In this document: piece by piece, positions 33,660 to 39,739 of the stretch
Position numbering within the stretch: the stretch's first letter is position 1
How the letters are laid out: every line of letters begins with the position of its first letter
Assembly (NCBI GenBank): GCA_003327435.1
Contig: QOQV01000005.1
Span: 1 to 64,000, forward strand
Source of the DNA: Ignavibacteriota bacterium
GTDB taxonomy: Bacteria; Bacteroidota; Ignavibacteria; UBA10030; BY39
Reading direction: 5' to 3'
Length of the DNA stretch: 64,000 bases
The notes under the pieces: generated by a model
Told to the model about the DNA's origin: nothing
Databases searched by the model: none
What the model saw: only the letters and a program-made list of their open reading frames with translations
Position numbers and translations under genes: made by a program

Positions 33660-33670
33660 AAAAAATTAAT

Positions 33671-33784
<114 letters not shown>

Positions 33785-33897
33785 GAATATAAAAAATCCA
33801 AATGAGAAGAGATTCCAAAAATCACAAGGAACAAGCTTATCAAAAGTCTGCTTGAGTATAGTGACAGGTAAGAAAGAAAGGGATCAATAAAAATACT

Positions 33898-36922
<3,025 letters not shown>

Positions 36923-37117: not shown

Positions 37118-37128
37118 TTTCAAAGAAC
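37118..37128 (-). promoter_or_regulatory. boxA-like antitermination element before 23S
   Basis: Minus strand TGTTCTTTGAAAAATGAG; same core GTTCTTTGAAA as upstream of 16S. Confidence 0.55.
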
Positions 37129-37142
37129 ACTTCTCACTTTTG

Positions 37143-37216
37143 TGGAGCTAACCGGGATCGAACCGGTAACCTCCTGGTTGCAAACCAGGCGCTCTCCCAA
37201 TTGAGCTATAGCCCCA
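37143..37216 (-). tRNA. tRNA-Ala (TGC)
   Basis: Minus strand GGGGCTATAGCTCAATTGGGAGAGCGCCTGGTTTGCAACCAGGAGGTTACCGGTTCGATCCCGGTTAGCTCC; anticodon TGC. Confidence 0.96.
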
Positions 37217-37249
37217 TAGTTCAGAGGTTTATCGCACCCCTGATAATGT

Positions 37250-37323
37250 GGGCCTGGGTGGAGTTGAACCACCGACCTCACGCTTATCAGGCGTGCGCTC
37301 TCACCACCTGAGCTACAGGCCCC
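37250..37323 (-). tRNA. tRNA-Ile (GAT)
   Basis: Minus strand GGGCCTGTAGCTCAGGTGGTGAGAGCGCACGCCTGATAAGCGTGAGGTCGGTGGTTCAACTCCACCCAGGCCC; anticodon GAT. Confidence 0.96.
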
Positions 37324-37344: not shown

Positions 37345-37845
37345 CTAATTCGGATTATATGGTTCACAACTACCATCTGGAGCACCATACCACTCACATC
37401 TACACTTAGGTTTTGAGCCATCTGGACAGGTTATCTCACATGAACCAAACAAACAACTGACTTTACAAGAACCTACCGGAACTTTAGTCTCATCAAATTC
37501 TGGAGGAACAAGAGTTTTGAAAAATTCTAAAATTTCGTCTTTTTGTTTTCTGCTTAATTTCTCTAATATTTCACCAACTCGTTTATTGTAAATTACATAC
37601 TTATCATAATCATTCTCTTTCATAGCAACAAATGCAATCACATATGCATTCTTTATACTATCCTTTATCAATTTGAATGATTCCTGCTGATCAAGAAACT
37701 TTATAAAATTATTAAAATTCTCTTCCTGTTGCTTCGAAACTGTCAATCTCACATTCTCAGGTTTAATACTCTGTATTGTTTGACCAATGACCGAGCAACT
37801 CATAAAGCATATAATCGATGGAATAATTATAAAAATTAATCTCAT
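37345..37845 (-). CDS. Small secreted/lipoprotein with Cys-rich C-terminus, encoded within the 16S-23S spacer
   Basis: 166 aa; hydrophobic N-terminal signal (MRLIFIIIPSIICFMSCSVIGQ), helical middle, C-terminal CKVSCLFGSCEITCPDGSKPKCRCEWYGAPDGSC (7 Cys). Sense orientation with the rRNA operon. Confidence 0.75.
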   Translation of the reverse strand: MRLIFIIIPSIICFMSCSVIGQTIQSIKPENVRLTVSKQQEENFNNFIKFLDQQESFKLIKDSIKNAYVIAFVAMKENDYDKYVIYNKRVGEILEKLSRKQKDEILEFFKTLVPPEFDETKVPVGSCKVSCLFGSCEITCPDGSKPKCRCEWYGAPDGSCEPYNPN

Positions 37846-37904
37846 ATTAAGTGTCTTGTAGTTTATTTTTCACTCTCCGGTTATATTACCTATGCAGTGA
37901 ATTA

Positions 37905-37915
37905 TTTAAAAGAAC
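37905..37915 (-). promoter_or_regulatory. boxA-like element between 16S and the spacer ORF
   Basis: Minus strand TTGTTCTTTTAAATAATT; GTTCTTTTAAA differs by one base from GTTCTTTGAAA at the other two sites. Confidence 0.4.
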
Positions 37916-38017
37916 AAATTAAAAAACTTTTTTATAAGATATAGTGTGTATGCCGCAAACCGAATTTGCTTTGAGGTTCTCGAAGTTGTCATTTCAAACT
38001 TACGTTTGAGTATGACT

Positions 38018-39586
<1,569 letters not shown>

Positions 39587-39675
39587 TAAAGTTTAAACTC
39601 TATAACTTCGAGCCTGATCTCTTGTTTTTTCAGGTTGATCCTCAAAAACAAATTGATCTTTGGCCATACACACTA

Positions 39676-39686
39676 TTTCAAAGAAC
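39676..39686 (-). promoter_or_regulatory. boxA-like antitermination element in 16S leader
   Basis: Minus strand AAAGTTCTTTGAAATAGTG, resembling the Bacillus rrn boxA (TGTTCTTTGAAAA). Confidence 0.55.
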
Positions 39687-39710
39687 TTTCATTTTTAATT
39701 TCGGGCTTAT

Positions 39711-39739
39711 AATATACAAACTTTTTTGGTTGAAGTCAA
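39711..39739 (-). promoter_or_regulatory. Sigma-70-type rRNA promoter
   Basis: Minus strand TTGACT - 17 nt - TATATT, upstream of the 16S leader. Confidence 0.7.

Follow-up and report, generated by a model that had tools for sequence, protein, structure and literature searches.

A conserved gene for a predicted exported, cysteine-rich protein within an Ignavibacteriota rRNA operon

Background

The rRNA operon of an Ignavibacteriota bacterium (assembly GCA_003327435.1, contig QOQV01000005.1) contains a gene for a predicted exported, cysteine-rich protein, which the comparison of related spacers shows to have been inserted past the 16S processing stem, between the spacer boxA and tRNA-Ile. Because the gene lies inside an rRNA operon, the protein is probably made in step with the ribosomes. 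In the reading that we favour, with a probability of roughly 0.6, the rRNA promoter drives transcription of an inserted gene kept by selection, rRNA and tRNA processing sets its message free, and the protein is translated and exported, so that its output follows rRNA synthesis. Ribosomal RNA operons are usually regarded as closed to protein genes, and their spacers serve as neutral typing markers. The window, i.e., the whole stretch of DNA analysed here, comprises 64,000 nucleotides and belongs to a genome of 2.6 Mb in 23 contigs (98.6% complete), in which one 16S gene was detected, inside a 197-kb contig.

Results

A gene in the 16S-tRNA-Ile spacer

The preliminary description had placed a 166-codon open reading frame (ORF) in the spacer, in the sense direction of the operon, and both its coordinates and its orientation proved correct (Table 1). 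The distances, first put at about 180 nt after the 16S and about 21 nt before tRNA-Ile, measured 178 nt from the 16S 3′ end to the ATG of the ORF and 22 nt from its stop codon to the tRNA. The leader and the spacer pair into the 16S processing stem, the 3′ arm of which ends at 37941, before the ORF, so the gene lies outside the pre-16S. The leader motif at 39676..39687 we take to be boxA-like. No sense-strand site resembling a consensus promoter was found between the 16S and the ORF, and the promoter upstream of the 16S is the likely source of the ORF transcript. The co-transcription with rRNA that had been proposed at the outset is thus strongly implied, rather than demonstrated, by the sense orientation, the promoter before the 16S, the boxA before the ORF and the lack of a promoter-like site in between.

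Table 1 Features of the rRNA operon in the window, in the direction of transcription
Feature	Position	Strand	Basis or remark
Promoter, consensus-like, TTGACT-17-TATATT	39711..39739	-	Upstream of 16S
Leader boxA-like motif AGTTCTTTGAAA	39676..39687	-	Sequence
Pre-16S processing stem, 5′ arm TAGTGTGTATGGC	39663..39675	-	Leader/spacer duplex, -65 kcal/mol
16S rRNA	38024..39587	-	Rfam RF00177
Pre-16S processing stem, 3′ arm GCGGCATACACACTAT	37941..37956	-	Leader/spacer duplex
Spacer boxA-like motif TTTGTTCTTTTAAA, immediately 5′ of the inserted gene	37905..37918	-	
Shine-Dalgarno-like GGAGAG, 6 nt 5′ of in-frame ATA (37866-37864)	37873..37878	-	
Gene for the 166-aa predicted exported protein	37345..37845	-	
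tRNA-Ile(GAU)	37248..37322	-	
tRNA-Ala(UGC)	37142..37215	-	
Second spacer boxA-like motif TGTTCTTTGAAA, upstream of 23S	37118..37129	-	Sequence
23S rRNA	33897..36921	-	Rfam RF02541
5S rRNA	33670..33786	-	Rfam RF00001

The sister species (G001, contig CALCJK010000015.1, locus L008), the one further species sampled in the genus, has the gene in this spacer too, and the two proteins are 56% identical over 164 residues. Positions 1-210 of that locus, upstream of the 16S, are G+C-rich and unlike the remainder, and are probably a chimeric contig end. Differences between the two genes fall on the first, second and third codon positions in the numbers 40/35/79, and the Ka/Ks comparison suggested beforehand indicated purifying selection, with a dN/dS of 0.28/1.47 (about 0.2) for the whole gene and 0.05/0.79 for the cysteine tail. 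In the core of this tail all 32 residues are identical, its 32 codons having accumulated 10 synonymous changes and no amino-acid change. None of 2000 dinucleotide-shuffled spacers contained an ORF of at least 166 codons, the longest having 99. By these comparisons the ORF is a real gene, conserved in the genus pair under purifying selection. Misassembly, the flaw that was to have undone the claim, is very unlikely, as a separate metagenome-assembled genome (MAG) has the identical arrangement. Nothing beyond the fact that the genomes are draft assemblies, in part metagenome-derived, speaks for a chance ORF or an assembly artefact, and we regard this explanation as already refuted by the homologues, the codon-position pattern, the agreement of two assemblies and the shuffled spacers.

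The start of translation differs within the pair. In the sister species a good Shine-Dalgarno sequence, GGAGGG, stands 7 nt before the ATG, which aligns in the window to the in-frame ATA at 37864-37866, 6 nt after GGAGAG, while the first ATG of the window follows seven codons past this ATA and has no Shine-Dalgarno sequence. Judging from this alignment, either the ATA is used as a start or translation begins at the later ATG, and the ATA itself could represent an ATA start or the loss of a start codon. A start at the later ATG still leaves a usable signal peptide. Since the ATG in the window lacks a Shine-Dalgarno sequence and the start of the sister gene aligns to an ATA, translation may be weaker here.

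Empty sites in related genomes

That the gene might have been inserted, raised earlier as an alternative, is established by the gene-free spacers of 39 relatives, 20 from its own order, 11 from another (including G275, a congener of genome G332 discussed below) and 8 from a third. Without the gene, the distance from 16S to tRNA-Ile is 54-281 nt in these relatives; with it, the spacer measures 702 nt in the genome of the window, 690 nt in the sister species and 630 nt in G332. In G002, a member of the same family with an empty site, the 16S and the stem are followed by the boxA-like GCACACTATTTTTAATTTTGTTCTTTGAAG, about 30 nt and tRNA-Ile, and TTTGTTCTTTGAAG is found where the window has the spacer boxA-like motif TTTGTTCTTTTAAA. 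We conclude from this alignment of spacers that the gene was inserted between the spacer boxA and tRNA-Ile, past the 16S processing stem.

A two-module protein family

The 166-aa protein begins with a signal peptide or lipobox-like N-terminus (about residues 1-22), as had been noticed before, and continues with a four-helix module (38-109) and a cysteine-rich four-strand module (126-162). The seven C-terminal cysteines already counted (127, 131, 136, 140, 148, 150 and 160) lie within the last 40 residues, and CLFGSCEITCPDGSKPK is a stretch of this tail. Confident AlphaFold models from two starting sequences (pLDDT 84.7 and 85.9, pTM 0.74 and 0.73) agree on four helices and a four-strand cysteine module, and the exported protein is therefore modelled as probably folding into a four-helix bundle and a four-strand module with several disulfides. 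Foldseek found nothing significant for the first model (best E 3.2 in PDB and 0.95 in BFVD) or, against PDB, for the second (best E 1.2), and a sequence profile search of PDB gave no significant match (best E 0.79). In Pfam, NCBIfam, PHROGs and PADLOC, where a protein counted as a member if it passed the curated cut-off or, in libraries that have none, reached a convincing E-value, only sub-threshold or weak matches to the protein were obtained. One candidate, ABC2_membrane_3 (best 9.5e-5, with the window protein below the cut-off), was rejected as compositional, since the match spans the signal peptide and the first helices. By eye, possible lipoboxes can be seen in the genus pair (FMSC and FNC) and in G257 (LLSC), but the proteins of G147 and G103 have no cysteine there and fit a signal peptidase I site.

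The search for homologues that had been called for, which was fruitless in the curated libraries, recovered the sister species and further members of the class. A class-wide search, repeated with a better profile, added seven clear members to the genus pair, so that the family occurs in 9 of 391 genomes; it is present in 4/20 and 4/123 genomes of two orders, the latter including one weak tail-only match, and was found in 2 of 396 genomes in a phylum-wide sample. No homologues were found in viral contigs and plasmids. Eight full-length members align along the entire protein (alignment A2), with invariant columns at N43, F44, C127, C131, C136, C140, P141, K145-C148, C150, C160 and E161. Their tail follows the pattern C-x3-C-x4-C-x3-CP-x2-[ST]-KPKC-x-C-x5-9-CE, usually with 8 cysteines. 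The window protein has the export signal, the N-F-helix module and the tail pattern of the family, with 7 of the usual 8 cysteines; at residues 158-159 it reads GS in place of the CG of the sister and other members, one tail cysteine having been lost. The ninth member, in G052 (L062 7946-8206), is a 5′-truncated remnant 61 nt upstream of tRNA-Arg; this remnant and the rRNA cases have in common that they lie in sense just before a tRNA, in three lineages. Taken together, this is a rare, previously undescribed family of two-module, exported, cysteine-rich proteins, for which structural relatives were not found. Exported proteins of G162, G387 and G028 (loci L070, L164 and L165) have a similar cysteine module first and a helical module second (E 5e-5 to 8e-3 for the helical module in a three-sequence search), which weakly suggests that the two modules are separable.

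Other loci, duplication and transfer

Outside rRNA operons, the gene lies upstream of the rimP-nusA-infB region in G142 and probably in G147, beside a lipoprotein gene in G103 (neighbours named by eye) and at further, unrelated loci in G031 and G257. In G103, G142 and G147 it is flanked by direct repeats of 84-100 bp that cover the 5′ flank and the signal peptide, and G103 retains a remnant tail upstream of the gene; these are traces of tandem duplication. At L063 7027-7717 and L065 3621-4290 the gene is followed by one for a small lysine-rich exported protein, the two genes having the 5′ flank and the signal peptide in common as a direct repeat of 94-100 bp.

In G332 an intact copy, on a contig of 300 kb, occupies the 16S-tRNA-Ile spacer in sense and with a gap of 37 nt to tRNA-Ile. 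Its G+C content is 0.45 in a locus of 0.61, and the copy is 70% identical to that of G142, from another order, versus 42% to that of its congener G257. A second, broken copy lies at C2:131298-131621, next to a neighbour resembling one beside the gene of G257. Resolution of the gene tree is weak, and the branches of G031 and G257 are long, so the case for transfer rests on identity, G+C content and the decayed native copy; by these sequence features, G332 probably lost its native copy, and the one that it gained in the rRNA spacer is foreign. The idea that the G332 insert carries a piece of donor rRNA spacer, GCGGTACGCACACACATCATT, was dropped for want of a significant match.

The earlier suggestion of a small mobile gene holds at the level of the gene, given the sporadic occurrence, the varied loci, the apparent transfer to G332 and the tandem duplications; it does not extend to an element, as no transposase or integrase ORF and no convincing element ends were found in the spacer. 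Inverted repeats considered as element ends in G103, G142 and G147 are explained by the direct repeats in tandem and by hairpins resembling terminators, and a 12-nt inverted repeat flanking the ORF in the window is short and was not seen in the sister species.

Discussion

We propose that the ancestor of this genus acquired a complete gene by insertion into the spacer and that purifying selection has kept it since. Polymerase modified at boxA (antitermination) would read through from the rRNA promoter, after which cleavage of the 16S stem by RNase III would make the 5′ end of the mRNA, and RNase P cleavage at the 5′ side of tRNA-Ile, 22 nt past the stop codon, its 3′ end. The mRNA would then be translated and the protein exported by Sec, with formation of its disulfides. 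Being cut from the rRNA precursor before translation and export, the message would make the output of the exported protein follow rRNA synthesis. The family member of G332, in a second lineage and in the same spacer and orientation, speaks for the proposal. As a counterpoint, most family members elsewhere sit outside rRNA operons, so coupling to rRNA is not required for function, and a comparable ORF on an rRNA transcript, in the 23S insert of Coxiella, is apparently untranslated (PMC4990558).

The gene could instead be a passenger at a permissive site, spread horizontally to many places, of which the rRNA spacer is a tolerated one whose conserved flanks aid recombination, with selection acting on the protein and not on rRNA-linked expression. 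Members at several unrelated loci, the low G+C content and foreign affinity of the G332 copy and the traces of duplication in three genomes fit such a history, which we nevertheless consider less likely: the gene reached the same spacer of roughly 100 nt at least twice independently, each time in sense and just before tRNA-Ile, and this looks non-random in this small sample and is hard to obtain by random insertion, few as the known loci are. Much less probable is a selfish element of the rRNA operon like the S23-ORF intervening sequences of 23S genes, which are excised from the precursor and mostly untranslated. The similar size (about 550 nt), the place in an rRNA transcript and the horizontal spread (compare PMC4990558) recall such elements, yet the gene lies in a spacer and not in a mature rRNA, its protein is conserved and carries an export signal, and it has relatives outside rRNA operons. 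Beyond expression from the rRNA promoter, exported accessory genes might even land repeatedly in the 16S-tRNA-Ile spacer and be expressed there, with selection putting this protein under rRNA control time and again; we advance this tentatively, as a possibility well short of even odds, and if true it would mean that mRNA ends are supplied by rRNA and tRNA processing and that a secreted product is coupled to growth rate.

The preliminary description stated that such spacers as a rule contain nothing but tRNAs and processing signals, to which exceptions are known. In Borrelia, housekeeping genes (purB, purA, mag, hpt and a HAD hydrolase) fill a 5.7-kb gap of the rrs-rrlA spacer, between tRNA-Ile and 23S (PMC2991353). 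Protein-coding genes thus lie between 16S and 23S in both cases; here, however, the operon is compact, and its single protein gene, for an exported protein, stands between boxA and tRNA-Ile. The Coxiella intervening sequence holds an S23p ORF inside the 23S, is excised by RNase III and appears untranslated (PMC4990558). It resembles the present case as a small, horizontally acquired, ORF-bearing insert on an rRNA transcript, whereas the gene described here encodes a conserved exported protein unrelated in sequence to S23p and lies in the spacer; S23 elements are inserted within the 23S, and the 23S model matched the window at full length (1-2925). Searches of the open-licence literature turned up no description of a conserved gene for an exported protein in this position, between boxA and tRNA-Ile.

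Homing endonucleases of rRNA introns are also encoded within rRNA operons. They share this location with the present gene; in contrast to them, neither an intron nor an endonuclease domain was found here, and the protein is predicted to be exported. The position of this gene between boxA and tRNA-Ile, together with the case in a distant lineage, suggests that cells can use rRNA transcription as an expression platform and obtain an mRNA through rRNA and tRNA processing; the gene also reveals a new two-module secreted family. From the sporadic, duplicated and transferred distribution of this family, our guess is that the exported protein acts in extracytoplasmic binding or antagonism. Among the other proteins of the window, C-termini of the T9SS type ('NYPNPFNS'), suggestive of the Ignavibacteria/Bacteroidota side, also occur.
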